This document shows positions 34,347-59,808 of a DNA stretch of 64,000 bases, piece after piece. The DNA is from Climacium dendroides. Its lineage: Eukaryota > Streptophyta > Bryopsida > Hypnales > Climaciaceae. Made by a program: the position numbers and the translations under genes. The DNA is taken from contig OX467086.1 of the NCBI GenBank assembly GCA_950106755.1, forward strand, positions 19,176,001 to 19,240,000, written 5' to 3'. How positions within the stretch are numbered: the first letter of the stretch is position 1; every line of letters starts with the position of its first letter. The notes below the pieces were generated by a model, which saw nothing but the letters and a program-made list of their open reading frames with translations, made no database searches and was not told the origin of the DNA.

Positions 34347-35414
34347 GAGCATCTTCACTCTTGCCCTGGAAAGGGTCCGAGATGGGTGTATGCTGAGCCT
34401 AGGCAGTTTTTGGTCCACCACAACAAACGCCATGTCCGACACTATCATTTGAGCCATTGAAAAATAAGTAGTTTGGCTGCCATCCGCTCACTTCTCAGGT
34501 TGCCTAGATTATCGTCAAACAATTCTTGCTGTAACTTGTTTTGCACACTTGATTCCAACACAGCCAAGCACTGAACAGTGCCAAATAGTCAACAATGTCA
34601 AAAAAAAAACTAATTGAAAGACCGGAAATCAAGAACAAATATAGACATTTGATGTGATTTTTTTTTCACACAAGCAAAGAGTACCCTTAGTACAAGAAAA
34701 AAAGAGAACTAGAAGTTGCCTCGAGACACAATAGACGCTAAAATACAAAACAAAAGACAACAACACAAATAGAAGTGTCAACCTTGCAAGGTGGGGCAAT
34801 CCCGCCCCACCAAAGGAAGCGCCCTAAGGAGGTTGAAAGACAAAACCGGTCCTAGGGCCAATGAGGGCCCATCTAGGTGCCTCTCCAACCATGGTAGAAA
34901 ACACCTCATTGAGGGTCCAACAAAGAAAAAACCAATTCCTGGCATCCTCCCATTACCTTGTATGCCCACATCATAGCTTGCAAACGCCCTTCCATTCTAC
35001 CCTACCATAGTCGATGATGCCAAGCCAGATGTGCTGTATAAGTTTAGTTGGACTCCAACAAACATCATTGAAAGCGGCATCGCTCCATTCAATTGATAGC
35101 ATCCAAAGAATGACCAATTAAAACACCATCCATATACTACTAACCACTTTGAACTTCCTTGGGATGTGGTCTAAGAAAATGCCTTGTTTCCATGTACGGG
35201 GGCACCAAGGCCCCTTGGCTTCCTTATAAGTGATGGAGCACATTCCTAGAATCTATAGAGCACCAATTCATTTGCTCTATTATGATAGATAGGGCAACTA
35301 GTGTCAATGGTGTGATGAACGCGACCTCTCCACGCATTAATCATGACATCTCGGTGCCATATAAACCATAGCAAGCTCGAGGGGAGGTCACTCTGTAGGG
35401 ATTTTGTGTACCAT

Positions 35415-35912
35415 GTGTGGTGAAGTGATTTTTTGACCCCCTATTTATTTTGGAATATGCTATAATTTCAACCTATAATTTTGAACTTTGATTAATAATG
35501 ACTATAAATTTATGTTGCCAAAAATTCCCAACTCAAATGACATTTAAAATGACTATTATAATAGGTTGAAAAATGAATTGAAATGGTATGTTTTTCGACT
35601 CAAACATTTATAGAGAATACATTTGGATGACCATTGCATCTATATTCAAGAAAAATAAACTTTCAATAGAGAGTTATTTTTAGGATTTTTTGATCATTTT
35701 TTAGACAATTTTTTATGAAGTAAGTAAGGGGTCCAAAGTTATTTTTAGCTCTACAGTGTATCTTTTTTCTTAAAAAATTTGTAACTAATTATTATCAATT
35801 AAAAAAATATCAATAATTCAAAATACAAACTTTCAAAGTAGAAAAACTTATTCAATTTTTTTTTTAATTAAATTTTATGAAGTGAATAAGGGATCCAAAA
35901 TCTTCGCCTCAC
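35415..35912. mobile_element. 0.5-kb MITE in the LINE 3' region, left arm
   Basis: Termini GTGTGGTGAAGTG and CGCCTCAC are approximate inverses of each other. The AT-rich interior is related to 26149-26715. Removing it joins two LINE segments that read on from ...SLYAFTQST into ...SLQSDLPSSLLWFIW on the coding strand. Mirrored at 57594-58091. Confidence 0.7.
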
Positions 35913-37262
35913 GTGGATTGTGTAAATGCATACAGTGACCTCCGCTCAAGCAAGCTTGCTTCTTTGGGGGTGCATGTCTTCATCCAAATTGTATTCCAAT
36001 AGAGACAATGTGAGAGGGTAAGATCCCTTGTCACTTCCTCTCGATAACATTTAGAATTTTGTATTTGGTTCTTAGCAAGTGTTGTTCAAGTTTGGTGTTG
36101 TATGATAGAAAAGGAATCGGGCCATATTTGCTAGGCTAATGGATCTTCCTGGGGTCCCATATTAATAGATCCATCCCACCATAATACAATAGTGACTTTG
36201 ATTTCTTTGGTCCACTTTGGCTTCTCATCACACGCACCCTATAGAAGTGACCTACTACTTGGAATGAACTGTTTTCCTCCTCAAAAAGAGGCCCTTGTGG
36301 TCTTCATCGAGCTAATGTGCTTGAATGGATCAATGCTTCAAAGTAAATTCCACTTCTAGGCAAGGTCCAATTTCTAGTCAAGCTACCTATACTAATGTCC
36401 AATCCTAGACTCATCTATAACACAAGGATCATAGTGGATCCTAGGGTTGCACTGAAACATTCTATCCACTCGCCTACAATAGGCCTAGGAAAATCAGAGG
36501 TCAACAATAACCCACAAATGCACTATAATGACCTCATAGTAGCTTCCCAGGCTCTTGATTCTTCAACTTTAACCTCAAAATGAGTAATTGCTTCTTTGAT
36601 GTCAAGGAAGCAATTGCCAACCCAAGCATCTTTAATAAACCATAATCCAACTTTGTGAAGTTGAATGACTTGAACTCTCACAAAGCCTAGATCCACTTGT
36701 GACAAGAAGTTGGACTACTAGAAGGGATTGCAGAGTAGTTCTTTAGATGAAGTTGGAGAGGCTGATTCCACAAATTTAACTAGCTTCTGCCAAGCTTCAC
36801 TAGCTTGATTCTAAATTTTGGACCCCTATTTGATTTGAAACCGAGTAATTGCAAGAACTCCAAACTTGGGCTCCACCTTTCTCCACTATATGGTTGGAAA
36901 CTTGCTAATCTATACCTCAGAAGGGCATGCAAGTTGGATGGATTTGGTTTAGTATCCACTTCATAATAAAGGCGACCAAAGCGTCAAGAGGGTTGATTAA
37001 TCCAAGGTCCTCTTCTAATTGGCTCTAGCAACACTATAGCCATACAACCTTAACATAGGAGTAGTGCAAAGATCTAGACCACATGTAATTTTGCACCATA
37101 CTTTTGTACTTTGTTACTCTAACCTAAGATCCAACCCAGATAGCAATAAAGAAGAAAGATGCTCACAACAATATATGGTTGACCACAATTACTCAACCAA
37201 TGGTGTTTATCCTTACTATATACTAATATGCCAATTTCTTTTGAATTTTGTCCAAAAGAAAA

Positions 37263-37984
37263 TTACCTACATCTCTTGAGCTTAAGGACAAACCAAACAA
37301 GGAATCCAACAACTTGTAAACATCCCATCTTTGGCCCACTTAAGATGGAGGTGATTGGTCCAAGGGGGTGTCCTTGATGGTCTTTGGAGTGCCAATATCT
37401 ACGTGATTTGTCCCAATTCAAGACCAATCTTGAACCTCTACAAAAAGAGTCAAGGATGGCTATTGTAGTAACAACCGACTCCTCTTTCTCTAAAAGATAT
37501 GTCATCTGCATATTGGGCCATTATTCATTATCACTCTTCTATTGGTAGTGTGATACCTTTGATTGCCCCTTTTGCAATACCAGATTTTTATCATTGAATT
37601 GAGTACTTCAATGGCACTAATAAAAAGGTATGGGACTAAAGGGCAGCCTTGTCTAATTCTTCTTTGTATAGGAAAAATTTGAGAGTGGGCACCATTAACT
37701 TTAACCGATGCTTTTGCATCCTGAAATAAGAGTTTTGTCATTGAAATGAATTTATTAGGGAACCCCATGGCTACCATAGCTTTGAATAAGATTCCAAGGT
37801 CTACCATATCATAAGCTTTATTAAAGTCCAACTTTAGAAAAAAGAGTGGTTGGCTTAAGTGGTCCACCCAATCTATTGATTCATGTGTTAGTAAAATGTT
37901 GTCTAAAAGAAAGCATGTAGGGAGAAAGGTTGATTGATCAAATGAGATAATCTCCATCAAAATTGGTTGCAACCAAAATTGCAA
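37263..37984 (-). pseudogene. LINE reverse transcriptase domain, left arm
   Basis: The minus-strand frame 37984-37502 carries RT motif A (FLKLDFNKAYDMVD) and motif B (RRIRQGCPLVPYLF). The catalytic Y-A-D-D of motif C (MAQYADDISF) follows in a different frame at about 37498-37521, so a frameshift separates it. The remainder continues at 37511-37263. This is the non-LTR order with an intact YADD but no continuous ORF. Confidence 0.85.
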
Positions 37985-38999
37985 GGCCTTGGCATATATT
38001 TTGTAATATTATAGGTCACATTTAGCAATGCTATAGGTCAATTGGACAATTTGCTCCAGTCACCTCCCTTGTGGAGAAAAGTGATAAGCCCACAATTTAT
38101 ACCTAGTGGCATATTATTATTACGTAATGTCATAGTAATCATCTTTAAAAAATTTACTTTAATAATGTCCTAGTAGCTTTTGAAGAAGCTAGTGATCACT
38201 CCATCCAGCCCGGGGCCTTACTAGGGTCCATACTTTTGAGGGCTTCCTTTAGCTCTTCCATACAAATAGGAGACAAGAAAACATTTTTCATTGAATCAGT
38301 AAGGTGGTTAGAAATCCCTCTAAAGCATATATCTTCATATTGTATTTATTCTGGTGACCTTGGGTTGGCCATATATAACTTGCTATAAAATCCTGAACAT
38401 ATTTCCTCTAAAGCTACTTGATCTGTATGTAGTAAGCCATGTGCATCCTCCAATTTGGTGATATTAGCTCCACTTTCACAATCCTTGTGGGCTTGGAAGA
38501 ACTCCTTTGAATAGGCATCACCAACTCACTTCTACCAAATCCGTTTCTTGATCTTAAATCCCTCCATATGTTGTTTTTTCACCTCCCCCAATCTTTCACC
38601 TAGGTCGCTCAATTTCCCTTGACACTCTATATTACTAGGATTTGCTTGCAAAGTCTCCACAGTAACAGAGAGTTGAGAATATAAATGAGCTTCTATTTCT
38701 TATTGAGACTTTGCCACTTTTAGACAATATTCTTTATAAAACCTGACTACCTTCTAAAGTTTGTTGAAAAAACCTATGCAGATTGGAAGTCCAAATCAAT
38801 GTGATTTGGGTTCTAACCTCCTTATCTTCAAAGTACTGTACACTCATCTTATAAACTGACTTCCACGGGGGGTGAGGAAAAAATTTCCCCATATCGGTAG
38901 GTGGTCAAAGTAGTTGCTATCTTTTTTTACAAAATATTCGGCAATTGGGTTTGCTTGGCCACTACCGGGTTGAAAAGAAATAAAAATGATGAAGCCTAG

Positions 39000-39371
39000 C
39001 TAAAACCCTTGATCCATCTTGGTGGCGGTTGTCCCAAGTGTATTTAATGGAATTGAAAGGAACCCAAAATTTTCTTCCACATTTAATACCCTAATGAGTA
39101 AATCAAATCGTTGAGAGGAACCCAAAATTGATGCCAAGTGTTGAATAGCAGAAGATATCCACATACGCACTTGTCCCTTTCCCGCCCTACTATCCTCCAA
39201 TGCATGACTATAGCCTAGTGATGCTTCTATACATAAATACTTAGTTCTTGGCCAAATTGATTGGCCCAAAGGTAATAGTTTTTCCCCTTTTAGATGGTGC
39301 TTTTGAAAATAGAGCACCTCCAAGCTTAACTTCAATGACCAATAATAGTTCTTCACTAGCTCAACCTTCAA
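39000..39371 (-). pseudogene. LINE endonuclease-like region, left arm
   Basis: A 123-residue frame upstream of the RT on the coding strand. It holds the phrases LEVLYFQKHHLKGEKLLPLG and GYSHALEDSRAGKGQVRMWI, which I take as part of the apurinic-type endonuclease of plant LINEs from position and general resemblance. The catalytic His/Asp residues are not clearly seen. Confidence 0.5.
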
Positions 39372-40442
39372 AAGGCAGTTGGCACCCTAAAGATTTTGGG
39401 ACATAATTGTAACTTTCATGGCAAAGAGTTGGGGTTGGGATGGAACAAAAGTGGGCCTCTTGTGGCTTCTCTATCCATATCACATTGCTTTGTAACTTGA
39501 TCCCCTTTCTTTATGCAACCTGAGATAGTCATTTTCGTATAAAGTTTTGAGTTTTAATGATGTTTGATAGATTCTGAGACATTTGTCTTCTTCTGCAACT
39601 ACTTCTTTGTGAATTTTTTTGAAGGCAACATAATAAACCTTCCATTGGCGAACAACTCGCATTTGACTCTACATCATTCTACAATCTTGGCATGAATGCT
39701 TGGTGGGAGATTTTCTAATGGGTCATAAAATTACACTGGAGTATGCAGGGTTGAAACATTGGAAGAGGGGCAACCGTGGTCCTTGCCAATTGGGCCAATG
39801 CAAATTCTACTAGGCCCTGCAATTGAGGTTCCACCAAGGCTGCCATTGTTTGATGGATCAAAAGTTGTTCCATTGAGATTAAGACTAGGGCATGCCTAAA
39901 TAGGTGCACTCGACACTTGTATCACCAAGTCGCCATCTGCATGTCCTTGGTTGGCTAACCTTGATACTTCAATTGCATCATGGATGTCTTTATTTGACTT
40001 TGATATATCTTTTTTTTGCTCCAAGTCAGTCGCATCAGTTTCTTGACCTTAGTTGTGCTTCATAAACTCTAGGTTGTTTGATGAGACACCATTCAATCCC
40101 ACATCTTGTTGTGGAGTGGGTAACACCGCATTCTTCTCTCCTATAGATTTGTCCTTTTTGAATTTCTAGGCCTTAGCAAAGGCCTTAGTAGCCTTGTATC
40201 TACAATACCAACCAACACACCACCTTCAATAGGGCCTTGTCTTTCACAGCTACTCGTGGATTATAGGGAGTCTCGATGAATCTTCCACTTTGCCATGCTC
40301 ATGACTTTGCTTGTTGATCTCTTCTTTGGTGCTAACTTTTTCTTTTTGGATGTCAATGATGTTGGACAAGGTCCCAAAGACTAACTTGCGAACCTCACTG
40401 CCCTTGATTGAAATGCCATTGATGGGGGCTCTAGCGAACAAC

Positions 40443-40657
40443 CACTATAAGAAAAGCAGTCCGAAATGACAAAAACTGGTCCGAAATGACAAAAATCAGC
40501 TAGTCCTAATCTACAGAAAATTGACAGTTTTTTTGTCAATTTAGGCAATTTTCTGTAGATTCGGATAGTTTTTGTCATTTCGGACTGAAATTCGTCAAAT
40601 TTTTGTAGATTAGGACTAGCTGATTTCTGTCATTTCGGACGTGTTTCTCTTGTAGTG
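40443..40657 (+). mobile_element. 215-bp CACTA fold-back MITE
   Basis: CACTATAAGAAAAG (one change in the terminus) to TCTCTTGTAGTG; duplication AAC on both sides. This copy has the 'agctag...ctagct' core variant, present symmetrically in both hairpin arms. It lies in LINE ORF1. Confidence 0.9.
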
Positions 40658-40835
40658 AACTCGTCTCTGCCATGTTTTGATTCCCCTCTCCTCTGAGATG
40701 TTTGGGGCCCTAATTTTTTGGACCATAGTACACCTTTTTCCACCCATTCTACTTGTATTCTGAAGTTTGGTGAGAATAAGAGTCATCAGTCTCAATATTG
40801 AAGGAGTTTTCAACCAAATTAACGTAGGGTGGTGA

Positions 40836-41050
40836 CACTACAAGAGAAACTCGTCCTAATTGACAAAAATCAGCCTGTCCTAATCTACAGAAATTTGACA
40901 GATTTTTGTCAATTAGGACAAAAAAACTGTCCGAATTGACAAAAAATTGTCCAAATTGACAAAAATCTGTCAATTTCTGTAGATTAGGATGGGCTGATTT
41001 TTGTCAATTAGGACGAGTTTCTGTCATTTTGGACAGGTTTTCTTGTAGTG
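40836..41050 (-). mobile_element. 215-bp CACTA fold-back MITE
   Basis: CACTACAAGAGAAAC to TTTTCTTGTAGTG; TGA duplication on both sides. Core 'cctgtcc/ggatggg' is slightly asymmetric. It differs from its mirror at 52456-52670 by one base. Confidence 0.9.
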
Positions 41051-41341
41051 TGACTTATTGACTACTCTAGGAGTAGTTGTTTCTTTGTTGGTGGTCCCAA
41101 CTACCTACCTACAATCCCCTGTCTTTTTGTTGCCTATGTTGGTTGCCTTGTCATCATGTAAAGGAATATACCACTCTGACTGTTGCCCATGCTCAAATTC
41201 CAGTGGTCCCAGTAGTACCTCATTCCTTGAGGACCCTAGTTGTTGACTTTTCCTCCTGGTCACCTTGTCACTAGACTTTCCTGTGGCTTCCATTGCACTT
41301 TATACCTTTGTCATTTGCCTTGATAAATCTCTCTAGGCACT

Positions 41342-41556
41342 CACTACAAGAAAACATGCCCGAAATGACAGAAATTGGTCCTAAATGACAGAAATCAGCC
41401 CCTCCTAATTGACTGAAAATTGACAGTTTTTTGTCAATTTGGACAATTTTCTATCAATTCGGACAGTTTTTTGTCCTAATTGACAGAAACTTGTCAAATT
41501 TCTGTCATTTAGGAGGGGCTAATTTCTATCATTTAGGACACGTTTCTCTTGTAGTG
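41342..41556 (+). mobile_element. 215-bp CACTA fold-back MITE
   Basis: Complete termini and ACT duplication. The insertion splits the zinc-knuckle of LINE ORF1: on the coding strand the sequence reads ...DHLAQE, then the element, then C-L-E-R, so removal restores the final cysteine. Confidence 0.9.
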
Positions 41557-41725
41557 ACTCTTGGGCTAAATGATCCATAGGAAGACAGATACTATAGTAA
41601 ATTAGGAAGTTTCCATAATCCATAGTAATGATCGCTTCTTCCCCTGTGAAATCATTGTGTACAATCAACTTTGTCTGCCACCTAGATTCAGAAGCATACC
41701 CAATATAAAATCGTTGGTCCAACAA
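41520..41725 (-). pseudogene. LINE ORF1 zinc-knuckle region, left arm
   Basis: A minus-strand frame (ASESRWQTKLIVHNDFTGEE..., YYSICLPMDHLAQE) resembles the nucleic-acid-binding, CCHC-knuckle part of plant LINE ORF1 proteins. The first cysteine appears replaced. The final cysteine is on the far side of the MITE at 41342-41556. The mirror copy is at 51781-51987. Confidence 0.55.
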
Positions 41726-41780
41726 GGACTAATTTCGCCTCAAGTACAACTTCCAATCCACTAGCAATCTCTGGAGCAAC

Positions 41781-41995
41781 CACTACAAGAGAAACTCGTC
41801 CTAATTGACAAAAATCAGCCCCTCCTAATCTACAAAAAATTGACAAGTTTCTGTCAATTAGGACAAAAAACTGTCCGAATTGACAGAAAATTGTCCTAAT
41901 TGACAAAAATCTGTCAATTTTCTGTAGATTAGGAGGGGTTGATTTTTGTCAATTAGGACAAGTTTTTGTCATTTTGGACAGGTTTTCTTGTAGTG
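41781..41995 (-). mobile_element. 215-bp CACTA fold-back MITE
   Basis: Complete termini and AAC duplication. Identical to its mirror at 51511-51725. Confidence 0.9.
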
Positions 41996-42397
41996 AACAT
42001 TCAAAAACTCCCTTGCGACATTCTTGAGTGTGACCCATGTTGGAACACATAGATTGGATGGATGTTGGCATTGAAATCTAGTGTCCATGTTTGTAGGATA
42101 CAAGTTCCGAATCTTTGAGCGGTGAGGCATCAACATCAAGAGCTTCTATGTCATGGATTGTTGCTTACTCAAAACTTGAAAGAAGCCACGACCAAGCTCT
42201 CTACTGATCCCAACCTAGTCACCCATGACCACTTGCAAGCTTTGAATCCACAATGAGGTGGCTTCTTATGAGGGTCTGCCACTTATAAAGTATGCCATGA
42301 TCGCATGTTTCATCAAGTATTCCGTGTTTCTTCCAACTAAATCTTGGTTTACTTGTACCTTAATGATCATGTTGTTAAGAAGAAAGCTCGTATAGCT

Positions 42398-42612
42398 CAC
42401 TACAAGAGAAACTCGTCCTAATTGACAAAAATCAGCCCCACCTAATCTACAGAAAATTGACAAGTTTCTGTCAATTAGGACAAAAAACTGTCCGAATTGA
42501 CAGAAAATTGTCCAAATTGACAAAAATCTGTCAATTTTCTGTCAATTAGGAGGGGTTGATTTCTGTCAATTAGGACGACTTTCTGTCAATTCGGACAGGT
42601 TTTCTTGTAGTG
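42398..42612 (-). mobile_element. 215-bp CACTA fold-back MITE
   Basis: Complete termini and GCT duplication. Identical to its mirror at 50894-51108. Only 75 bp of LINE sequence separates it from the next copy. Confidence 0.9.
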
Positions 42613-42687
42613 GCTCCTCGAGAAACCCTCTGGAAGTTGTTCTCTAGGCATCGCCAACGCCGAATGGAAGTGGTCACAATGTCCTAT

Positions 42688-42902
42688 CACTACAAGAAAA
42701 CCTGTCCAAAATGACAAAAACTCGTCCTAATTGACAAAAATCAGCCCCTCCTAATCTACAGAAAATTGACAGATTTTTGTCAATTTGGACAATTTTCTGT
42801 CAATTCGGATAGTTTTTTGTCCTAATTGACAAAAGACTGTCAATTTTCTGTAGATTAGGAGGGGCTGATTTTTGTCAATTAGGACGCGTTTCTCTTGTAG
42901 TG
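42688..42902 (+). mobile_element. 215-bp CACTA fold-back MITE forming the inner end of the left arm
   Basis: CACTACAAGAAAACC to TCTCTTGTAGTG with TAT on both sides, so this is an ordinary insertion. The LINE ORF1 frame is continuous across it (...KLIAMVMN | IGHCDHFHSA). Its right terminus is exactly where similarity to the right arm stops. Four substitutions separate it from its mirror at 50604-50818. Confidence 0.92.
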
Positions 42903-43439
42903 TATATTCATTACCATTGCAATTAGTTTAGACTCCACCTTGGCATCTTCCTACACCAGGGTTGCACGGACGCTAGGGCACCCGGACGTCCAACGTCCGC
43001 GTCCGCGGGTTTTCGAGCGTCTGAGGACATAGAAATTTCGGACTCGCGTCCGTGCAGTGGACGGGCGGTCGGCCGGTTCAGTGAGCCGACTGAGCAGTCG
43101 GACGGCGAGGACGGGGTAGACGGGGCCGACCGAGCGGATGGACGCGGGCCAGGGGGCGGTTGGGGCCGACCGATCGGTCGGCTGATTGGGTGGCCCGTTC
43201 GACCGGTCGGCAATCCGATCGGACGGCTGAGATTGGGCGGACGGGATGGCCGTCCACCTCATACAAAAGAGGCGGTCGGGTCGTCTGCCTCTCACTTTTA
43301 CCTTCCCCCTTGCTTGCAAGAGAGAGCGGAGAAGCTTAGTGCCTTTGGGCCCTATTGCCTCCTCTCCTCGGGAGGGTAAAGGTGAAATCTTGGGGGGACC
43401 CTTGCCATTTTTTTCTCGAATCGTGCGACATTCATCAAG

Positions 43440-43739
43440 ATGCCAAGGGCGAAGAAGAAAACGAAGTTTGTGGAGGAATCTACTGAGGCCGACATCATGG
43501 ACAACCCCTCGCACACTTGTACCGCATTTTTGAGAAAATGCATTGTTGAATTCTATGAGAGAGAAACTACCATGTCTCTTGACTCTGAGTATGTTCGTTA
43601 TCAAGAGGAGGGCATTGAGAAGTTCAAAGGCGATATAAAGGACATGATGCATGGACATCCGGAGGTGGAGGTGGAGGTGGCAACTGTTCAGCTGGTTCTT
43701 CATCATCGTCAGCATCACTATCCTCTGCATCCCGCATAG
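43440..43739 (+). CDS. Coding-like fragment in the hAT element, plus strand
   Basis: ATG at 43440 after a GC-normal leader. The frame starts MPRAKKKTKFVEESTEADIM, basic then acidic, and stays protein-like to about 43660. It then runs into a GGAGGT repeat and the convergent minus-strand frame, so only the first ~70 residues look genuine. No family recognised. It may be a captured gene 5' end or an ancestral element gene. Confidence 0.35.
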   Translation: MPRAKKKTKFVEESTEADIMDNPSHTCTAFLRKCIVEFYERETTMSLDSEYVRYQEEGIEKFKGDIKDMMHGHPEVEVEVATVQLVLHHRQHHYPLHPA

Positions 43740-44268
43740 GCCAACTTAGGCACCCAAATTGACCTCGGTTCGACCAAGCTGGCATGCAATCACTTTCGCC
43801 ACGCCAGTTAGTGAACACCACAGCTGAGTGACACGTCATCTTCGTCTCTTTATTCATCCCTATAACTGTACGCCAGTCAACGTCTTTTTGGAGTACAATC
43901 TCCGCCCAAACCATTGCCATGGTAGAATAGTTCATGATGGTAGGCTTCGAGGGACCTAGATTTGAAGTTGCCCAAATTTCTTCGTATCTCTCTACAAAGT
44001 GTCTACTCGTACACGTCTTTATAGGGCCTTCCCACCGTCTCACTTGCTTCTCCAAACTGTCATTTGCTGGCCACAGTTTGGCTATGTGTGACATGGTCAC
44101 ATATTTCTTGCACATTGTACAAGTCCACACTTTGTCGGACTCGTACTCCCACCCCTCCTTTGCCACATTGAATTCATCGAAGTAAACATCCCAATCTAGT
44201 TCTTGTGGTTTCCCCTTCGAACTTTTCTTCGAAGAACCAGAAAGAAACGGAATTCCTTTGCGAGGCAT
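43624..44268 (-). CDS. Coding-like fragment in the hAT element, minus strand
   Basis: From the ATG at 44268 (MPRKGIPFLSGSSKKSSKGK) the frame is open for about 215 residues. It has a Cys-x2-Cys pair (WTCTMCKKYV) followed by a later Cys and His (TCTSRH), which could be a BED-like zinc finger, then an acidic stretch (DAEDSDADDDEEPAEQ) and a proline run. The ending near 43624 overlaps the plus-strand fragment. A transposase N-terminus is a guess. Confidence 0.35.
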   Translation of the reverse strand: MPRKGIPFLSGSSKKSSKGKPQELDWDVYFDEFNVAKEGWEYESDKVWTCTMCKKYVTMSHIAKLWPANDSLEKQVRRWEGPIKTCTSRHFVERYEEIWATSNLGPSKPTIMNYSTMAMVWAEIVLQKDVDWRTVIGMNKETKMTCHSAVVFTNWRGESDCMPAWSNRGQFGCLSWPMRDAEDSDADDDEEPAEQLPPPPPPPDVHASCPLYRL

Positions 44269-44799
44269 AGTACCCTTCTCTATAAATGACCTCAACGTTA
44301 GAATGATTAATGTGTAGTGGTTTCAGATTATAATAATTAGTGAATACCACTCATTCATTCACAATTGTTCACACACCAAGGCGGAAGGGGCGCACAGAGA
44401 CCAATAGCCGCTGGATCACCCACTCCGCAAGGGAAACAATTGTGCGGAATGAGCCGTCCGCTTCGCTTTTTATACCGACCGACGAGGCGGACGTCGCTGT
44501 TGGCTTGAGGGTCGGACGGCAAGATCGGACGGACAGCGTGAATTCGCATCTCCCATCCCACGGTCGACAGAGACGTATGGACGGCCGAGTCGGACGGACG
44601 CACCGATCGCTTGGCCGTCGGGCCGTCTGCTCGGTGGACGGGTGGATGGGCGGACGGACGGACTTCGTCTGCCCCGACCGATCGGCCGTCGGCCTGTCCG
44701 CTCAGTAGACGGGTCGCTGCTTTCGCCGACCGCTTGGTCGGCGCAGTGTCCGCCGAGCGGACGGCCAGGCAGCCCACGACCTGTGGATTCTCCAAACTT

Positions 44800-47480: not shown

Positions 47481-47522
47481 TTGGGTCACCTTTATGCGGT
47501 TGGCCGATCCGTGCGGTCGGAC

Positions 47523-47740
47523 AGTCCGTTGCGGACCATCGGTCGGCCCCGTCCGGCGCGGTCGGCCCATCATCGTGGTCCGATAGTCCGTTGCGGACCA
47601 TCAGTCGGCCCCGTCCGGCGCGGTCCGACAGTCCGCTGCGGACCATCGGTCGGCCCCGTCCGGCGCGGTCATTCCATTCGCGCGGTAGGACAGTCCGTTG
47701 CGAACCATCAGTCGGCCCCGTCCGCTGCGGTTGCCGGTCG
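47523..47740. repeat. GC-rich higher-order tandem repeat
   Basis: The block AGTCCGTTGCGGACCATC...GGTCGGCCCCGTCC recurs with starts at 47523, 47585, 47630 and 47692, an alternating 62/45/62-bp spacing. Each unit contains an internal GTCCG/CGGAC inverse pair. Confidence 0.85.
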
Positions 47741-48296
47741 GACCTTCGTTAAACCTGCGGTAGGCCCGGTCGGCCAGTCCGCGGCCTCTGCCTCTCTTCT
47801 CTTTCTCTCATAGACGGTCCGCTACGGACCTGCGGTCGGCCCATCCACGGCCTTCCACGCGGTCGGAGAGTCTGCTGCAGTGTTGCCGTTGTGCCCCCCC
47901 CGCCATTCCGCCAACCACGATCTTCAATTTTGTAATTTGGTATTTACAAATTTCAGTTTCTATGCAAGCTTTCTTTCTGAGGTTCATTATTTCTAACGCT
48001 TCCCAAGAAATTATCTGATTTATTTGTTTTGTACATGGAGAATGAATAACCAAAATACACGCAGTGAAGACTTCTTCAATTTCCTATTCAACCATTCAAC
48101 CAAAGATAATGAATAAAAAAGGTTTATTACATTTTTCAAAATAAACACGCAAATTCCTATTATAGAGCAATGCGTGTCAAATGTCAAACCTCATTTCTCC
48201 TACGTTCATAAAGTCTTCCAAATTCAAATCATAAAGATTTGAAGAACTATCTATGTAACGTATTCTAATCTAACCCGTTCTAAGAATGTAAGATTC

Positions 48297-48690
48297 CTAA
48301 GGATGATAATCACTATCTCCTTTTACCTCTGCCCCACTACTATAGTCTCTTGATATCCATCCGTCGTCTTCATCGTTGAAAGTATTGTCTTCATCATCTG
48401 ATGAAGCCAATACTTTTTCTTTCTCTTTTCCTCTGATTTCCGTAGATGTAGAAGCTTTCTTCCCCTTGCCTATGTTTGGATCATCCTTCCTCCGTAAGAA
48501 ATTCTTACCGAGGATGCGTTCTCGAAGACCGCCGGCCAATCGTCCTTTCCTTGCGGGAAGAGTTGGAAGGGATAGTCGTGTATCCAAGGGGGTTCTTCCT
48601 CCATGTACTTTCTTCCTTGGGGAGATAGCAAATGGCTCCATCACTCGTTTCTTCTTAGGTTTAGCGGATTCTTCTACCATTGCTTCTTTT
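48297..48690 (-). CDS. Coding-like fragment near the right end of the hAT element
   Basis: The minus-strand frame has a nuclear-localisation-like run (PKKKRV), a basic segment (LPARKGRLAGGLRERILGKN) and an acidic Ser/Asp-rich tail (SSDDEDNTFNDEDDGW) ending at 48297. Upstream of about 48690 it is only GC-rich repeat translation, and the frame runs out past the element end, so the start is unknown. The acidic tail would suit a chromatin or transposase-associated protein, but I recognise no family. Confidence 0.35.
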
Positions 48691-49646
48691 GCCTGCGGAT
48701 GGCGTTCGATCGGACGGTCCGTCCGCTCCCGAACCTGCGGACTGGCGGTCCGCCCGACCGCTGCGACATCGGTCCGACTGACCGCTCCGCCGGCCGCCCG
48801 ACCAACCGCTGGACGCCGCCCGACCACAGTCCGGCCGCGTCCATGACACCTGGACGACGGACGTCTAGACGTCCGGATTTTGGACGCGATTTCGTGATGG
48901 ACGTACGTCCGAGACAACCCTGTCCTATACGGCCTCCATTCTAGCTTGTGCATCTTCAATTGCTGTTGAGGCGATTGGAGCATGCTCCATTTGCAACTTG
49001 TCAATGTACAACATCATCTTTCAGATCTCAACAAAAAAAGGGGCTTCTTGATACATCCTAGGAACTGGGTACTCATCCATTTTTTTTCCTTGTCAAAAAA
49101 GTAACTAAAGATTAATACATAATTGAATCTTTCTTGAATATAATCATGATTCAATCCAAGCAATCATTTAGTATCAAAGCTTGCATCTAGTTGTATACGT
49201 AGTAAGGAGATTTTTGACTCAGTATAATCCACACATATGTGTAATATTTTGTCAAGGCAAAAGACGACCAAAACTAATGCAAGCAAATATAAAAGCAAAG
49301 TCTCATAAGAGAAAGAAAGAGATTTTTATTTCAAATAACAAACACCATGAAATGAAGAACAAAAAATATTGCAAAAAAATCATCTGCAATTCTCTGAAAG
49401 GTCATGGGCCTCACTTGTGCCCATTGGCCCATTTCAAGAACATGTCAACGAATTGCAAATTGGTGAGGATGCAATAGGCTTCTACAGCCCACAAATGCTT
49501 GTTATTGTTGTCACAAGGAGAATCAAAGATAAAAATTGCAAATCCTAAGTTCCAACATTATCATGCAATTCCAACAATAGCCATCAATTACCTGTGAAGT
49601 AGCAATTTGTGATTGTGATGAAGCCATCGTTCTGTAACCGTGTAGT

Positions 49647-49860
49647 CACTACAAGAAAACCTGTCCGAAATGACAAAAACTGGTCCGAAATGATAGAAAT
49701 CAGCCCCTCCTAATCTATAGAAAATTGACAGTTTTTTGTCAATTTAGACAATTTTCTGTCAATTCGGACAGTTTTTGTCCTAATTGACTGAAATTCGTCA
49801 AATTTCTGTAGATTAGGAGGGGCTGATTTTTGTCATTTCGGACGCGTTTCTCTTGTAGTG
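49647..49860 (+). mobile_element. 214-bp CACTA fold-back MITE in the spacer
   Basis: Complete termini with AGT on both sides. Outer stem variant 'gtccgaaatgac' paired with 'gtcatttcggac'. It is the nearest complete family member to the aberrant right-arm junction, 744 bp away. Confidence 0.9.
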
Positions 49861-50603
49861 AGTAATGCTATTAGACAGAAAGATGGTTTAGACACTCATA
49901 CAAATCAATGGGATTATCAAATTATTAGCCCTCAGCTTAAAAAATTCACTACTAGTGTTCCAGTAATTGTGCCTTGGTTATATTAAGTAATTGTAATTTT
50001 GGCACTATAGGTACTAATAATGGTGGTTATGGGCCCATTGTTTGGAGGCTCCATAAATAAACAACTACAGTCAAGTACTTTAGAGGCTATTTACTTGTCA
50101 GTTTGGATATACCAAATCAAGTAGGATTAATTCAACATCCAAGTTCTGAATTCCTCAATTGTTTTGATTTGCTGCTAGTGTTATAAAAAGGAATCATGTA
50201 TCCTTTTTCAGCTTATTCAATTGCAACTTTTATTAAAAGAACGAGAAATTTTTAAATGAAGTTAAAAGCTTCCAACTAAGCTCTCAATTGCTCAACGAAA
50301 AAAATACTATAACAATTTTAAATCACCCATTAAAAAAAATCTTTTAAAGAAAGGGTGGGAGGGAGGTATTTAATCTAGTCTCAATTGACATGTTTCTGTT
50401 TTAATCATGTTTATGGATATAAGAATCCTAGAATAAATATTTGGCATCTTATCATCATATCTATTCTATTACTTTATTTATAAACCGTTCTCAATTTTAT
50501 GAGCTAGTCATTAATCTAGTGACAAGAACTAGAATATGAAAGCTAGAAAAAAGAAAAAAACTAATAAACCTTCACCAAACACCCTGACTCTACGACCGCC
50601 TAG

Positions 50604-50818
50604 CACTACAAGAGAAACTCGTCCTAATTGACAAAAATCAGCCCCTCCTAATCTACAGAAATTTGACAGTTTTTTGTCAATTAGGACAAAAAACTATCCG
50701 AATTGACAGAAAATTGTCCAAATTGACAAAAATCTGTCAATTTTCTGTAGATTAGGAGGGGCTGATTTTTGTCAATTAGGACGAGTTTCTGTCATTTTGG
50801 ACAGGTTTTCTTGTAGTG
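50604..50818 (-). mobile_element. 215-bp CACTA fold-back MITE at the right-arm junction
   Basis: Both termini are intact, but the flanks are TAG (inner) and ATA (outer). The outer one is what the mirrored TAT predicts; the inner one is foreign. Among the full-length copies in the window it is the only one without a matching 3-bp duplication. Confidence 0.92.
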
Positions 50819-50893
50819 ATAGGACATTGTGACCACTTCCATTCGGCGTTGGCGATGCTTAGAGAACAACTTCCAGAGGGTTTCTCGAAGAGC

Positions 50894-51108
50894 CACTACA
50901 AGAAAACCTGTCCGAATTGACAGAAAGTCGTCCTAATTGACAGAAATCAACCCCTCCTAATTGACAGAAAATTGACAGATTTTTGTCAATTTGGACAATT
51001 TTCTGTCAATTCGGACAGTTTTTTGTCCTAATTGACAGAAACTTGTCAATTTTCTGTAGATTAGGTGGGGCTGATTTTTGTCAATTAGGACGAGTTTCTC
51101 TTGTAGTG
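50894..51108 (+). mobile_element. 215-bp CACTA fold-back MITE
   Basis: Mirror of 42398-42612. AGC duplication. Confidence 0.9.
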
Positions 51109-51510
51109 AGCTATACGAGCTTTCTTCTTAACAACATGATCATTAAGGTACAAGTAAACCAAGATTTAGTTGGAAGAAACACGGAATACTTGATGAAACA
51201 TGCGATCATGGCATACTTTATAAGTGGCAGACCCTCATAAGAAGCCACCTCATTGTGGATTCAAAGCTTGCAAGTGGTCATGGGTGACTAGGTTGGGATC
51301 AGTAGAGAGCTTGGTCGTGGCTTCTTTCAAGTTTTGAGTAAGCAACAATCCATGACATAGAAGCTCTTGATGTTGATGCCTCACCGCTCAAAGATTCGGA
51401 ACTTGTATCCTACAAACATGGACACTAGATTTCAATGCCAACATCCATCCAATCTATGTGTTCCAACATGGGTCACACTCAAGAATGTCGCAAGGGAGTT
51501 TTTGAATGTT

Positions 51511-51725
51511 CACTACAAGAAAACCTGTCCAAAATGACAAAAACTTGTCCTAATTGACAAAAATCAACCCCTCCTAATCTACAGAAAATTGACAGATTTT
51601 TGTCAATTAGGACAATTTTCTGTCAATTCGGACAGTTTTTTGTCCTAATTGACAGAAACTTGTCAATTTTTTGTAGATTAGGAGGGGCTGATTTTTGTCA
51701 ATTAGGACGAGTTTCTCTTGTAGTG
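51511..51725 (+). mobile_element. 215-bp CACTA fold-back MITE
   Basis: Mirror of 41781-41995. GTT duplication. Confidence 0.9.
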
Positions 51726-51949
51726 GTTGCTCCAGAGATTGCTAGTGGATTGGAAGTTGTACTTGAGGCGAAATTAGTCCTTGTTGGACCAACGATTTTA
51801 TATTGGGTATGCTTCTGAATCTAGGTGGCAGACAAAGTTGATTGTACACAATGATTTCACAGGGGAAGAAGCGATCATTACTATGGATTATGGAAACTTC
51901 CTAATTTACTATAGTATCTGTCTTCCTATGGATCATTTAGCCCAAGAGT

Positions 51950-52164
51950 CACTACAAGAGAAACGTGTCCTAAATGATAGAAATTAGCCCCTCCTAAATG
52001 ACAGAAATTTGACAAGTTTCTGTCAATTAGGACAAAAAACTGTCCGAATTGATAGAAAATTGTCCAAATTGACAAAAAACTGTCAATTTTCAGTCAATTA
52101 GGAGGGGCTGATTTCTGTCATTTAGGACCAATTTCTGTCATTTCGGGCATGTTTTCTTGTAGTG
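51950..52164 (-). mobile_element. 215-bp CACTA fold-back MITE
   Basis: Mirror of 41342-41556. AGT duplication. Interrupts the ORF1 zinc-knuckle before its last cysteine. Confidence 0.9.
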
Positions 52165-52455
52165 AGTGCCTAGAGAGATTTATCAAGGCAAATGACAAAG
52201 GTATAAAGTGCAATGGAAGCCACAGGAAAGTCTAGTGACAAGGTGACCAGGAGGAAAAGTCAACAACTAGGGTCCTCAAGGAATGAGGTACTACTGGGAC
52301 CACTGGAATTTGAGCATGGGCAACAGTCAGAGTGGTATATTCCTTTACATGATGACAAGGCAACCAACATAGGCAACAAAAAGACAGGGGATTGTAGGTA
52401 GGTAGTTGGGACCACCAACAAAGAAACAACTACTCCTAGAGTAGTCAATAAGTCA

Positions 52456-52670
52456 CACTACAAGAAAACCTGTCCAAAATGACAGAAACTCGTCCTAATT
52501 GACAAAAATCAGCCCGTCCTAATCTACAGAAATTGACAGATTTTTGTCAATTTGGACAATTTTTTGTCAATTCGGACAGTTTTTTTGTCCTAATTGACAA
52601 AAATCTGTCAAATTTCTGTAGATTAGGACAGGCTGATTTTTGTCAATTAGGACGAGTTTCTCTTGTAGTG
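52456..52670 (+). mobile_element. 215-bp CACTA fold-back MITE
   Basis: Mirror of 40836-41050. TCA duplication. One base differs from the mirror (52516 region, cccGtcc against cccAtcc). Confidence 0.9.
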
Positions 52671-52848
52671 TCACCACCCTACGTTAATTTGGTTGAAAAC
52701 TCCTTCAATATTGAGACTGATGACTCTTATTCTCACCAAACTTCAGAATACAAGTAGAATGGGTGGAAAAAGGTGTACTATGGTCCAAAAAATTAGGGCC
52801 CCAAACATCTCAGAGGAGAGGGGAATCAAAACATGGCAGAGACGAGTT

Positions 52849-53063
52849 CACTACAAGAGAAACACGTCCGAAATGACAGAAATCAGCTAGTCCTAATCTA
52901 CAAAAATTTGACGAATTTCAGTCCGAAATGACAAAAACTATCCGAATCTACAGAAAATTGCCTAAATTGACAAAAAAACTGTCAATTTTCTGTAGATTAG
53001 GACTAGCTGATTTTTGTCATTTCGGACCAGTTTTTGTCATTTCGGACTGCTTTTCTTATAGTG
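52849..53063 (-). mobile_element. 215-bp CACTA fold-back MITE
   Basis: Mirror of 40443-40657, including the mutated terminus CTTATAGTG. GTT duplication. Confidence 0.9.
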
Positions 53064-54134
53064 GTTGTTCGCTAGAGCCCCCATCAATGGCATTTCAATC
53101 AAGGGCAGTGAGGTTCGCAAGTTAGTCTTTGGGACCTTGTCCAACATCATTGACATCCAAAAAGAAAAAGTTAGCACCAAAGAAGAGATCAACAAGCAAA
53201 GTCATGAGCATGGCAAAGTGGAAGATTCATCGAGACTCCCTATAATCCACGAGTAGCTGTGAAAGACAAGGCCCTATTGAAGGTGGTGTGTTGGTTGGTA
53301 TTGTAGATACAAGGCTACTAAGGCCTTTGCTAAGGCCTAGAAATTCAAAAAGGACAAATCTATAGGAGAGAAGAATGCGGTGTTACCCACTCCACAACAA
53401 GATGTGGGATTGAATGGTGTCTCATCAAACAACCTAGAGTTTATGAAGCACAACTAAGGTCAAGAAACTGATGCGACTGACTTGGAGCAAAAAAAAGATA
53501 TATCAAAGTCAAATAAAGACATCCATGATGCAATTGAAGTATCAAGGTTAGCCAACCAAGGACATGCAGATGGCGACTTGGTGATACAAGTGTCGAGTGC
53601 ACCTATTTAGGCATGCCCTAGTCTTAATCTCAATGGAACAACTTTTGATCCATCAAACAATGGCAGCCTTGGTGGAACCTCAATTGCAGGGCCTAGTAGA
53701 ATTTGCATTGGCCCAATTGGCAAGGACCACGGTTGCCCCTCTTCCAATGTTTCAACCCTGCATACTCCAGTGTAATTTTATGACCCATTAGAAAATCTCC
53801 CACCAAGCATTCATGCCAAGATTGTAGAATGATGTAGAGTCAAATGCGAGTTGTTCGCCAATGGAAGGTTTATTATGTTGCCTTCAAAAAAATTCACAAA
53901 GAAGTAGTTGCAGAAGAAGACAAATGTCTCAGAATCTATCAAACATCATTAAAACTCAAAACTTTATACGAAAATGACTATCTCAGGTTGCATAAAGAAA
54001 GGGGATCAAGTTACAAAGCAATGTGATATGGATAGAGAAGCCACAAGAGGCCCACTTTTGTTCCATCCCAACCCCAACTCTTTGCCATGAAAGTTACAAT
54101 TATGTCCCAAAATCTTTAGGGTGCCAACTGCCTT

Positions 54135-54506
54135 TTGAAGGTTGAGCTAGTGAAGAACTATTATTGGTCATTGAAGTTAAGCTTGGAGGTGCTCTATTTT
54201 CAAAAGCACCATCTAAAAGGGGAAAAACTATTACCTTTGGGCCAATCAATTTGGCCAAGAACTAAGTATTTATGTATAGAAGCATCACTAGGCTATAGTC
54301 ATGCATTGGAGGATAGTAGGGCGGGAAAGGGACAAGTGCGTATGTGGATATCTTCTGCTATTCAACACTTGGCATCAATTTTGGGTTCCTCTCAACGATT
54401 TGATTTACTCATTAGGGTATTAAATGTGGAAGAAAATTTTGGGTTCCTTTCAATTCCATTAAATACACTTGGGACAACCGCCACCAAGATGGATCAAGGG
54501 TTTTAG
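54135..54506 (+). pseudogene. LINE endonuclease-like region, right arm
   Basis: Exact mirror of 39000-39371; same reading and the same limits. Confidence 0.5.
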
Positions 54507-55521
54507 CTAGGCTTCATCATTTTTATTTCTTTTCAACCCGGTAGTGGCCAAGCAAACCCAATTGCCGAATATTTTGTAAAAAAAGATAGCAACTACTTTG
54601 ACCACCTACCGATATGGGGAAATTTTTTCCTCACCCCCCGTGGAAGTCAGTTTATAAGATGAGTGTACAGTACTTTGAAGATAAGGAGGTTAGAACCCAA
54701 ATCACATTGATTTGGACTTCCAATCTGCATAGGTTTTTTCAACAAACTTTAGAAGGTAGTCAGGTTTTATAAAGAATATTGTCTAAAAGTGGCAAAGTCT
54801 CAATAAGAAATAGAAGCTCATTTATATTCTCAACTCTCTGTTACTGTGGAGACTTTGCAAGCAAATCCTAGTAATATAGAGTGTCAAGGGAAATTGAGCG
54901 ACCTAGGTGAAAGATTGGGGGAGGTGAAAAAACAACATATGGAGGGATTTAAGATCAAGAAACGGATTTGGTAGAAGTGAGTTGGTGATGCCTATTCAAA
55001 GGAGTTCTTCCAAGCCCACAAGGATTGTGAAAGTGGAGCTAATATCACCAAATTGGAGGATGCACATGGCTTACTACATACAGATCAAGTAGCTTTAGAG
55101 GAAATATGTTCAGGATTTTATAGCAAGTTATATATGGCCAACCCAAGGTCACCAGAATAAATACAATATGAAGATATATGCTTTAGAGGGATTTCTAACC
55201 ACCTTACTGATTCAATGAAAAATGTTTTCTTGTCTCCTATTTGTATGGAAGAGCTAAAGGAAGCCCTCAAAAGTATGGACCCTAGTAAGGCCCCGGGCTG
55301 GATGGAGTGATCACTAGCTTCTTCAAAAGCTACTAGGACATTATTAAAGTAAATTTTTTAAAGATGATTACTATGACATTACGTAATAATAATATGCCAC
55401 TAGGTATAAATTGTGGGCTTATCACTTTTCTCCACAAGGGAGGTGACTGGAGCAAATTGTCCAATTGACCTATAGCATTGCTAAATGTGACCTATAATAT
55501 TACAAAATATATGCCAAGGCC

Positions 55522-56243
55522 TTGCAATTTTGGTTGCAACCAATTTTGATGGAGATTATCTCATTTGATCAATCAACCTTTCTCCCTACATGCTTTCTTT
55601 TAGACAACATTTTACTAACACATGAATCAATAGATTGGGTGGACCACTTAAGCCAACCACTCTTTTTTCTAAAGTTGGACTTTAATAAAGCTTATGATAT
55701 GGTAGACCTTGGAATCTTATTCAAAGCTATGGTAGCCATGGGGTTCCCTAATAAATTCATTTCAATGACAAAACTCTTATTTCAGGATGCAAAAGCATCG
55801 GTTAAAGTTAATGGTGCCCACTCTCAAATTTTTCCTATACAAAGAAGAATTAGACAAGGCTGCCCTTTAGTCCCATACCTTTTTATTAGTGCCATTGAAG
55901 TACTCAATTCAATGATAAAAATCTGGTATTGCAAAAGGGGCAATCAAAGGTATCACACTACCAATAGAAGAGTGATAATGAATAATGGCCCAATATGCAG
56001 ATGACATATCTTTTAGAGAAAGAGGAGTCGGTTGTTACTACAATAGCCATCCTTGACTCTTTTTGTAGAGGTTCAAGATTGGTCTTGAATTGGGACAAAT
56101 CACGTAGATATTGGCACTCCAAAGACCATCAAGGACACCCCCTTGGACCAATCACCTCCATCTTAAGTGGGCCAAAGATGGGATGTTTACAAGTTGTTGG
56201 ATTCCTTGTTTGGTTTGTCCTTAAGCTCAAGAGATGTAGGTAA
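55522..56243 (+). pseudogene. LINE reverse transcriptase domain, right arm
   Basis: Exact mirror of the left-arm RT: motif A FLKLDFNKAYDMVD, motif B RRIRQGCPLVPYLF, and, after a frame change, MAQYADDISF from 55985. The same frameshift in both arms shows that it predates the duplication or was copied by conversion. Confidence 0.85.
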
Positions 56244-57593
56244 TTTTCTTTTGGACAAAATTCAAAAGAAATTGGCATATTAGTATATAGTAAGGATAAA
56301 CACCATTGGTTGAGTAATTGTGGTCAACCATATATTGTTGTGAGCATCTTTCTTCTTTATTGCTATCTGGGTTGGATCTTAGGTTAGAGTAACAAAGTAC
56401 AAAAGTATGGTGCAAAATTACATGTGGTCTAGATCTTTGCACTACTCCTATGTTAAGGTTGTATGGCTATAGTGTTGCTAGAGCCAATTAGAAGAGGACC
56501 TTGGATTAATCAACCCTCTTGACGCTTTGGTCGCCTTTATTATGAAGTGGATACTAAACCAAATCCATCCAACTTGCATGCCCTTCTGAGGTATAGATTA
56601 GCAAGTTTCCAACCATATAGTGGAGAAAGGTGGAGCCCAAGTTTGGAGTTCTTGCAATTACTCGGTTTCAAATCAAATAGGGGTCCAAAATTTAGAATCA
56701 AGCTAGTGAAGCTTGGCAGAAGCTAGTTAAATTTGTGGAATCAGCCTCTCCAACTTCATCTAAAGAACTACTCTGCAATCCCTTCTAGTAGTCCAACTTC
56801 TTGTCACAAGTGGATCTAGGCTTTGTGAGAGTTCAAGTCATTCAACTTCACAAAGTTGGATTATGGTTTATTAAAGATGCTTGGGTTGGCAATTGCTTCC
56901 TTGACATCAAAGAAGCAATTACTCATTTTGAGGTTAAAGTTGAAGAATCAAGAGCCTGGGAAGCTACTATGAGGTCATTATAGTGCATTTGTGGGTTATT
57001 GTTGACCTCTGATTTTCCTAGGCCTATTGTAGGCGAGTGGATAGAATGTTTCAGTGCAACCCTAGGATCCACTATGATCCTTGTGTTATAGATGAGTCTA
57101 GGATTGGACATTAGTATAGGTAGCTTGACTAGAAATTGGACCTTGCCTAGAAGTGGAATTTACTTTGAAGCATTGATCCATTCAAGCACATTAGCTCGAT
57201 GAAGACCACAAGGGCCTCTTTTTGAGGAGGAAAACAGTTCATTCCAAGTAGTAGGTCACTTCTATAGGGTGCGTGTGATGAGAAGCCAAAGTGGACCAAA
57301 GAAATCAAAGTCACTATTGTATTATGGTGGGATGGATCTATTAATATGGGACCCCAGGAAGATCCATTAGCCTAGCAAATATGGCCCGATTCCTTTTCTA
57401 TCATACAACACCAAACTTGAACAACACTTGCTAAGAACCAAATACAAAATTCTAAATGTTATCGAGAGGAAGTGACAAGGGATCTTACCCTCTCACATTG
57501 TCTCTATTGGAATACAATTTGGATGAAGACATGCACCCCCAAAGAAGCAAGCTTGCTTGAGCGGAGGTCACTGTATGCATTTACACAATCCAC

Positions 57594-58091
57594 GTGAGGC
57601 GAAGATTTTGGATCCCTTATTCACTTCATAAAATTTAATTAAAAAAAAAATTGAATAAGTTTTTCTACTTTGAAAGTTTGTATTTTGAATTATTGATATT
57701 TTTTTAATTGATAATAATTAGTTACAAATTTTTTAAGAAAAAAGATACACTGTAGAGCTAAAAATAACTTTGGACCCCTTACTTACTTCATAAAAAATTG
57801 TCTAAAAAATGATCAAAAAATCCTAAAAATAACTCTCTATTGAAAGTTTATTTTTCTTGAATATAGATGCAATGGTCATCCAAATGTATTCTCTATAAAT
57901 GTTTGAGTCGAAAAACATACCATTTCAATTCATTTTTCAACCTATTATAATAGTCATTTTAAATGTCATTTGAGTTGGGAATTTTTGGCAACATAAATTT
58001 ATAGTCATTATTAATCAAAGTTCAAAATTATAGGTTGAAATTATAGCATATTCCAAAATAAATAGGGGGTCAAAAAATCACTTCACCACAC
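57594..58091. mobile_element. 0.5-kb MITE in the LINE 3' region, right arm
   Basis: Mirror of 35415-35912, with ends GTGAGGCGAAG and CTTCACCACAC. Confidence 0.7.
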
Positions 58092-58792
58092 ATGGTACAC
58101 AAAATCCCTACAGAGTGACCTCCCCTCGAGCTTGCTATGGTTTATATGGCACCGAGATGTCATGATTAATGCGTGGAGAGGTCGCGTTCATCACACCATT
58201 GACACTAGTTGCCCTATCTATCATAATAGAGCAAATGAATTGGTGCTCTATAGATTCTAGGAATGTGCTCCATCACTTATAAGGAAGCCAAGGGGCCTTG
58301 GTGCCCCCGTACATGGAAACAAGGCATTTTCTTAGACCACATCCCAAGGAAGTTCAAAGTGGTTAGTAGTATATGGATGGTGTTTTAATTGGTCATTCTT
58401 TGGATGCTATCAATTGAATGGAGCGATGCCGCTTTCAATGATGTTTGTTGGAGTCCAACTAAACTTATACAGCACATCTGGCTTGGCATCATCGACTATG
58501 GTAGGGTAGAATGGAAGGGCGTTTGCAAGCTATGATGTGGGCATACAAGGTAATGGGAGGATGCCAGGAATTGGTTTTTTCTTCGTTGGACCCTCAATGA
58601 GGTGTTTTCTACCATGGTTGGAGAGGCACCTAGATGGGCCCTCATTGGCCCTAGGACCGGTTTTGTCTTTCAACCTCCTTAGGGCGCTTCCTTTGGTGGG
58701 GCGGGATTGCCCCACCTTGCAAGGTTGACACTTCTATTTGTGTTGTTGTCTTTTGTTTTGTATTTTAGCGTCTATTGTGTCTCGAGGCAACT

Positions 58793-58889
58793 GGGCTCTA
58801 GTTTTGTCCTAATTGACAGAAACTTGTCAAATTTCTGTCAATTAGGAGGGGCTGATTTCTGTCAATTACGACGACTTTCTCTTGTAGTG
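58793..58889 (+). mobile_element. Partial CACTA MITE joined to the right arm's outer end
   Basis: From about 58800 (ttttgtcctaattgacag) to the terminus CTCTTGTAGTG at 58889 this is the second half of a CACTA MITE. The first half is missing and replaced by the LINE/right-arm end, with about 5 unmatched bases at the join. The sequence after it (ttaacaaatcc) does not occur next to the left arm. Confidence 0.85.
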
Positions 58890-59593: not shown

Positions 59594-59808
59594 CACTACA
59601 AGAAAACCTGTCCAAAATGACAGAAACTCGTCCTAATTGACAAAAATCAGCCCGTCCTAATCTACAGAAAATTGACAGATTTTTGTCAATTACGACAATT
59701 TTCTGTCAATTCGGACAGTTTTTTGTCCTAATTGACAAAAATCTGTCAATTTTCTGTAGATTAGGACGGGCTGATTTTTGTCAATTAGGACGAGTTTCTC
59801 TTGTAGTG
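59594..59808 (+). mobile_element. 215-bp CACTA fold-back MITE
   Basis: Complete termini and TAT duplication. Core variant 'cccgtcc...ggacggg' in both hairpin arms. Confidence 0.92.

Follow-up and report, generated by a model that had tools for sequence, protein, structure and literature searches.

The 64,000-nucleotide window analysed here, a stretch of the Climacium dendroides genome (C34:19176001-19240000; assembly of 412.6 Mb in 123 contigs), carries a degenerate long interspersed nuclear element (LINE), several copies of a 215-bp CACTA-type miniature inverted-repeat transposable element (MITE), and an inverted duplication that involves both. Two arms of 8189 bp face each other across a single-copy spacer of 7701 bp, such that position x in one arm corresponds to 93506-x in the other, and the two arms align over all 8189 sites without a gap and with 8 mismatches. 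Mirrored arms and a spacer of just these lengths had been reported in a preliminary description of the locus. The duplication is, as assembled, anchored at the end of a CACTA MITE, and we regard this observation as confirmed. The coordinates of all features are given in Table 1.

Junctions of the arms and identity of the template

In the copies closest to the consensus, the MITE starts with CACTACAAGAGAAAC at its A-end and with CACTACAAGAAAACC at its B-end. A near-perfect hairpin (-85 kcal/mol, z -21) is predicted for the single strand, and none of 200 shuffled sequences was equally stable. With mirrored copies counted once, nine intact insertions are present in the window, i.e., six in the arm, one in the spacer and two in the right flank. 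All nine have matched 3-bp target site duplications (TSDs), as do four of five distant copies and the one further copy; the bases at the ends of the MITE at 60147 are altered. The family resembles CACTA (En/Spm) MITEs in its CACTA...TAGTG termini, 3-bp TSDs, genome-wide distribution and lack of any coding sequence that was noted. It differs from them in having nine independent insertions within 20 kb, and in one junction without a TSD that starts a large duplication.

At the inner end of the left arm, the MITE at 42688-42902 is a normal insertion with TAT on both sides, just as previously described. At the inner right junction, CGACCGCCTAG is directly followed by CACTACAAGAG, and the right arm starts at MITE base 1, at position 50604. 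The TAG outside this MITE has no partner, since the opposite side carries ATA, the mirrored TAT. This TAG-MITE-ATA arrangement bears out two further claims of the preliminary description, namely that the right inner MITE ends in TAG without a target duplication and that the copy begins precisely at a transposon end.

That description did not mention that the outer end of the right arm falls at another member of the family, a truncated MITE (58802-58889) ending in TAGTG followed by TTA. The outer junction shows a short homology, TAGTT/TCTAGTT, together with four extra bases, GGGC. The right-hand unit from 50604 to 58889 measures 8286 bp and is edged by two outward-facing A-ends, one at each of these positions, and the 3-mers outside them, TAG and TTA, do not form a matched target duplication. 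A single resident MITE at the right site was considered and rejected, given that both outer termini are A-ends and that their flanks are TAG and TTA. Among the copies in the window, the truncated MITE is closest to that at 60147 (5 differences in 80 columns); none of these copies is its exact source, and the left inner MITE is still in place. TAG is also found at 58799-58801, and an empty site CGACCGCC-TAG-TTTTGTCC can be imagined. We give this pairing little weight because TAG is common (1.7% of positions) and the junction permits several alignments.

Related LINEs elsewhere in the genome indicated which arm had served as the template. A copy on C1 with none of the arm's six MITEs is collinear with window positions 50597-50547, 49039-48929, approximately 42956-42903 and 42398-38321 (the last in pieces), while copies on C2 and C41 cross the site of the inner MITE uninterrupted into what is spacer in the window. 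All three LINEs (73-75% identity) span the left arm-spacer boundary and are without the inner MITE. As these three copies are continuous over that boundary, the left arm is the template and the right arm the copy, in agreement with the earlier proposal. Judging from this collinearity, a single old LINE makes up the left arm together with the spacer, and their order is ancestral, the right arm being a new copy at or near the LINE 5' end. It had also been claimed that the LINE frame runs through the left MITE into the spacer; collinearity with the C1 copy establishes the continuity in a stronger form, but the argument from a frame is weak, the LINE frames being degenerate. A target duplication belonging to the LINE itself was sought at 34-37 kb, with nothing convincing found there.

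Table 1. Positions of the inverted duplication, its junctions and the repetitive elements in the window.
Feature	Position	Strand	Remarks
Left arm (template)	34714..42902	+	Degenerate LINE on minus strand with 6 MITEs, plus sequence beyond the LINE
Right arm (inverted copy)	50604..58792	-	8 mismatches to left arm
Spacer, single-copy	42903..50603	.	LINE 5' part carrying inserted elements
Inner MITE, left arm	42688..42902	-	215 bp; A-end CACTACAAGAGAAAC at 42902; TSD TAT/TAT; near-perfect hairpin
Inner MITE, right arm	50604..50818	+	Differs from the left inner MITE at 4 sites; TAG outside, ATA inside; no TSD
Outer junction	58786..58809	+	GGCAACT + GGGC + TCTAGTT + TTGTCC; template GGCAACT + TCTAGTT + CTC
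Truncated MITE, outer right end	58802..58889	-	A-end outward at 58889; flank TTA; family likeness may start at 58799 (TAG)
MITE	40443..40657	-	TSD AAC; mirrored at 52849-53063
MITE	40836..41050	+	TSD TGA; mirrored at 52456-52670
MITE	41342..41556	-	TSD ACT; mirrored at 51950-52164
MITE	41781..41995	+	TSD AAC; mirrored at 51511-51725
MITE	42398..42612	+	TSD GCT; mirrored at 50894-51108
MITE in spacer	49647..49860	-	TSD AGT
MITE in right flank	59594..59808	-	TSD TAT
MITE in right flank	60147..60361	-	TSD AAT
LINE reverse-transcriptase fragment	37502..38008	-	PF00078
Putative hAT-like element	42957..48922	-	CAGGG ends; 8-bp flanks TCCTACAC (42949-42956) and TCCTATAC (48923-48930), 7 of 8 alike
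1.5-kb repeat in LINE 5' part	49040..50560	.	Bounds approximate; copies on C2

Distribution of differences between the arms

The eight mismatches between the arms (left coordinates 34922, 40990, 42617, 42647, 42717, 42835, 42844 and 42887) are strongly clustered. Six fall within the last 286 bp before the inner breakpoint (2.1%) and two in the other 7903 bp (0.025%), an 80-fold contrast. Six differences within any 271 bp, a width picked after inspection of the data, arose in 1 of 200,000 random placements. Seven of the eight lie within 290 bp of an arm end, including one in the outermost 209 bp, and five are inside MITEs. Four of the 215 sites of the inner MITEs differ, as against 4 of 7974 in the rest of the arms.

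The inner MITEs were compared with 13 other copies, five of which were distant ones from the best-scoring matches to the left MITE. At the four differing sites, the state of the right MITE is present in other copies in every case and that of the left MITE in three; under random independent substitution, and measured against the eight window copies, the chance of such agreement is approximately 2e-4 for the right and 6e-3 for the left. The left arm stands alone at MITE position 68, where none of the 13 others has its state. Both inner MITEs carry T at position 67 (none of 13 others) and A at position 93 (one of 13). These shared states speak against the right MITE being simply of foreign origin; one inner MITE was therefore copied from the other, at least there. 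Counting against a close tie between the two, a distant copy (L045) has four differences to the right MITE, the same number as the left MITE.

Outside the inner MITEs, the right-arm state at 40990 is that of the MITE at 59594, as judged by eye on the alignment. At 42617 the C1, C2 and C41 LINE copies all have the left state, so that the right arm looks derived, and at 42647 the C1 copy has the right state and the C2 and C41 copies the left. Changes seem to sit on both arms, the polarity being weak with LINE copies of only 73-75% identity. Error-prone copying was rejected as the sole cause of the clustering, because the right arm looks derived at 42617 and the left is odd at position 68. Family variants seem to be mixed, mosaic-like, in the two inner MITEs, which we read as the outcome of copying from the left MITE combined with an exchange of variants among MITEs, either at birth or later.

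The same contrast could reflect an older duplication that was homogenised by gene conversion from arm to arm, in which case the true age would be better reflected by the 2.1% in the last 286 bp, the 0.025% elsewhere being the product of conversion. Such conversion has been reported between palindrome arms in willow (PMC7023750), and our locus is similar to these sex-chromosome palindromes in having inverted arms with stretches kept very alike. It is different in that it consists of 8 kb of repeat DNA without recognised genes, and conversion here is putative. While the 80-fold contrast fits this history, the single difference in the outermost 209 bp is below expectation for an unconverted edge at 2%, and the five differences in MITEs can be explained by exchange among MITEs. 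We consider it quite unlikely; it concerns later history and is compatible with the other origins. Assumed mutation rates yield ages from 10 thousand to over 2 million years, according to the part of the arms that is trusted, and we assign none.

Few differences in the arm interiors, with seven of the eight so close to an arm end, could presumably also come from short-read polishing of a repeat. An assembly artefact, whether a fold-back, wrongly joined haplotypes or the overwriting of one arm with the other during polishing, nevertheless appears quite improbable to us. It would have to accommodate a unique 7.7-kb spacer, four distinct flanks, an outer junction with four extra bases and a truncated MITE, and a surrounding 294 kb that contains no N bases. 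The preliminary description had invoked both the flanks and the arm differences against a fold-back. The former are indeed distinct on all four sides; the latter make a weak argument, piled up as they are at the inner end.

Candidate origins of the right arm

We see an even chance that the right arm arose by template switching between inverted, hairpin-forming MITEs and was closed by microhomology, and the duplication is probably an accident of a known type. At the right site, a break or stalled fork would have arisen within or next to a MITE oriented opposite to the LINE's innermost MITE 8 kb to the left, and single-stranded MITE hairpins may also have triggered the break. A strand of the right-site MITE would have paired with its inverted relative at 42688-42902, and copying would have proceeded through that element and on for 8.2 kb, to about 34707-34714, to generate the copy that is now observed. 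Because the homology starts at MITE base 1, the inverted copy would start there as well. The new end would then have been joined by a few matching bases to the remnant of another MITE (58802-58889), with the four extra bases seen in the sequence. Exchange, whether among MITEs, between arms or in both ways, may have left its mark on the few differences.

Support for template switching comes from both ends of the copied unit, which are MITEs of one family. The stability of the predicted hairpin fits the model as well, as do the states that the inner MITEs share with each other and with further copies. The inner breakpoint is at a MITE terminus, and the family is present in both orientations, consistent with homology within a repeat, the resident copy at the right site not being preserved. 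At the outer junction, the TAGTT/TCTAGTT homology and the GGGC insert are of the kind expected for the second junction of a two-step template switch, i.e., microhomology or a small insertion. A two-step origin has been proposed for human duplication - inverted triplication - duplication rearrangements (DUP-TRP/INV-DUP), with inverted-repeat homology at junction 1 and microhomology or end joining at junction 2 (PMC4352052). Our locus is similar in its second junction, formed by microhomology with a small insertion, and its first would likewise lie in inverted-repeat homology. Unlike the human cases, it is an inverted duplication only, with two copies of the LINE part of the arm (36101-40442) within 294 kb and no triplication; it also involves 215-bp MITEs as opposed to low-copy repeats, and its right-hand resident repeat is one that we postulate.

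Three points weigh against template switching. No MITE survives at the right site as the resident copy, and the model has to assume the loss of its TAG partner along with everything up to the truncated MITE. As a mosaic, the inner MITE is no clean two-part chimera, as position 186 and the LINE differences at 42647 and 42617 are beyond the left-specific stretch. Finally, the human cases, as reported, show extra point mutations at junction 2, whereas the excess here is at the inner junction (PMC4352052).

The preliminary description had favoured alternative transposition. According to this model, a CACTA transposase would have joined the A-ends of the innermost left MITE and another MITE, and insertion at a new site, re-replication of 8.2 kb of flank and joining of the broken ends would have produced a composite insertion from 50604 to 58889. 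In maize, composite insertions have Ac termini with 8-bp target duplications, and of six that were sequenced, three were attributed to homologous recombination and three to end joining (PMC4270019). Our locus resembles them in its transposon termini at both edges, outward-facing as the model requires, in the segmental duplication beside a transposon end, and in a short-homology internal junction (TAGTT/TCTAGTT shared, GGGC extra) attributable to end joining or homologous recombination; two of the maize insertions have 3- and 4-bp microhomologies (PMC4270019). The elements here are CACTA MITEs, however, and the edge flanks TAG and TTA form no target duplication, in contrast both to the nine of nine matched intact MITEs of the window and to the 8-bp duplications at maize Ac termini (PMC4270019). 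On one side only about 90 bp of an element remain, with no flank, and any role of a transposase is putative.

An unmatched target duplication is not diagnostic alone, as one of the five distant family copies is also without one, and in a weaker, one-ended version of the model the TAG at 50601-50603 could pair with that at 58799-58801. Even so, both edges are the same (A) end, and the inner MITEs have 4 differences in 215 bp as compared with 4 in 7974 bp for the rest of the arms. We rate alternative transposition unlikely. A plain composite insertion is disfavoured by the outer flanks, and a natural composite insertion by CACTA transposase, in which the ends of separate 215-bp MITEs were used, one A-end at TAG and the other side closed by re-replication and microhomology, is in our view rather unlikely. 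That the copy starts at a CACTA MITE end stands from the earlier interpretation; the joining of ends by transposase is not specifically supported, with TAG and TTA unmatched. The inner breakpoint at MITE base 1 does not discriminate between the two models because inverted-MITE homology and transposase both predict it. The models part ways over the target duplication and over what became of the right site.

Inversion by staggered breaks, with fill-in, yields inverted duplications around a central segment in published models (PMC7584159). Applied here, such a model has arm and spacer inverted as one piece, with the original junction on the outer right. We regard this as very improbable: it requires a stagger of 8.2 kb, it leaves the exact coincidence with a MITE end to accident (there are 12 MITE ends in 8189 bp), and the arm would originally have ended at a truncated MITE with four extra bases.

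If two nearby hairpin MITEs suffice to anchor an 8-kb inverted copy, as template switching would have it, then such elements are a source of inverted duplications; in this genome they form a large family of near-perfect hairpins lying in both orientations. Such duplications might in turn yield hairpin transcripts for silencing. If the composite insertion were true instead, alternative transposition would extend from Ac/Ds and VANDAL21, for which it was proposed in Arabidopsis in 2025, VANDAL elements having previously been unlinked to it according to that report (PMC12312487), to CACTA and miniature elements; with a transposase responsible, it would be no speciality of a few superfamilies. Titles and abstract openings in the literature covered, which excluded most subscription journals, announced no such case for CACTA elements or MITEs.

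Further MITE copies and other elements

All 50 BLAST matches of the MITE within the 294 kb lay inside 40443-60360. In these 20 kb the CACTA MITE family has nine independent insertions, and the surrounding 274 kb gave no match. A purely local family was rejected as an explanation, since a genome-wide search returned 1034 first-look candidates, and the 40 that were scored and listed were full-length matches of 96-100% identity, two of them at the locus. If most of the 1034 first-look candidates are real, nine MITEs in 20 kb would represent a strong cluster compared with the approximately 2.5 per Mb expected.

Two other groups of copies were conspicuous. On C2, three MITEs in the same orientation (43496781, 43516777 and 43536773) lie exactly 19,996 bp apart, pointing to a 20-kb tandem triplication; a relative of the window LINE is found about 32 kb away. 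On C1, two MITEs in opposite orientation (4698278-4698492 and 4699202-4699416) lie 0.7 kb apart. The former has the TSD GGC/GGC and the latter, the one distant copy noted above as lacking a TSD, has unmatched flanks (ATT/GAA), a possible second case of rearrangement at a MITE end.

The spacer element at 42957-48922, which we take to be hAT-like from features typical of such elements, is 6 kb long and rich in GC-rich short repeats. No transposase domain was detected in the two open reading frames scanned. Many relatives of its left end are dispersed over the genome (1344 candidates, of which 40 were scored). Both this element and the 1.5-kb repeat interrupt the window LINE, and both are absent from the C1 LINE copy. 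This C1 copy (C1:8909994; window counterpart 50547-50597) carries ACCCTAATAAACC, a telobox-like motif, near the LINE 5' end. Finally, a second inverted pair was identified in the window outside the main duplication, at 15697-16243 and 17052-17588 (550 bp, 90.5% identity).

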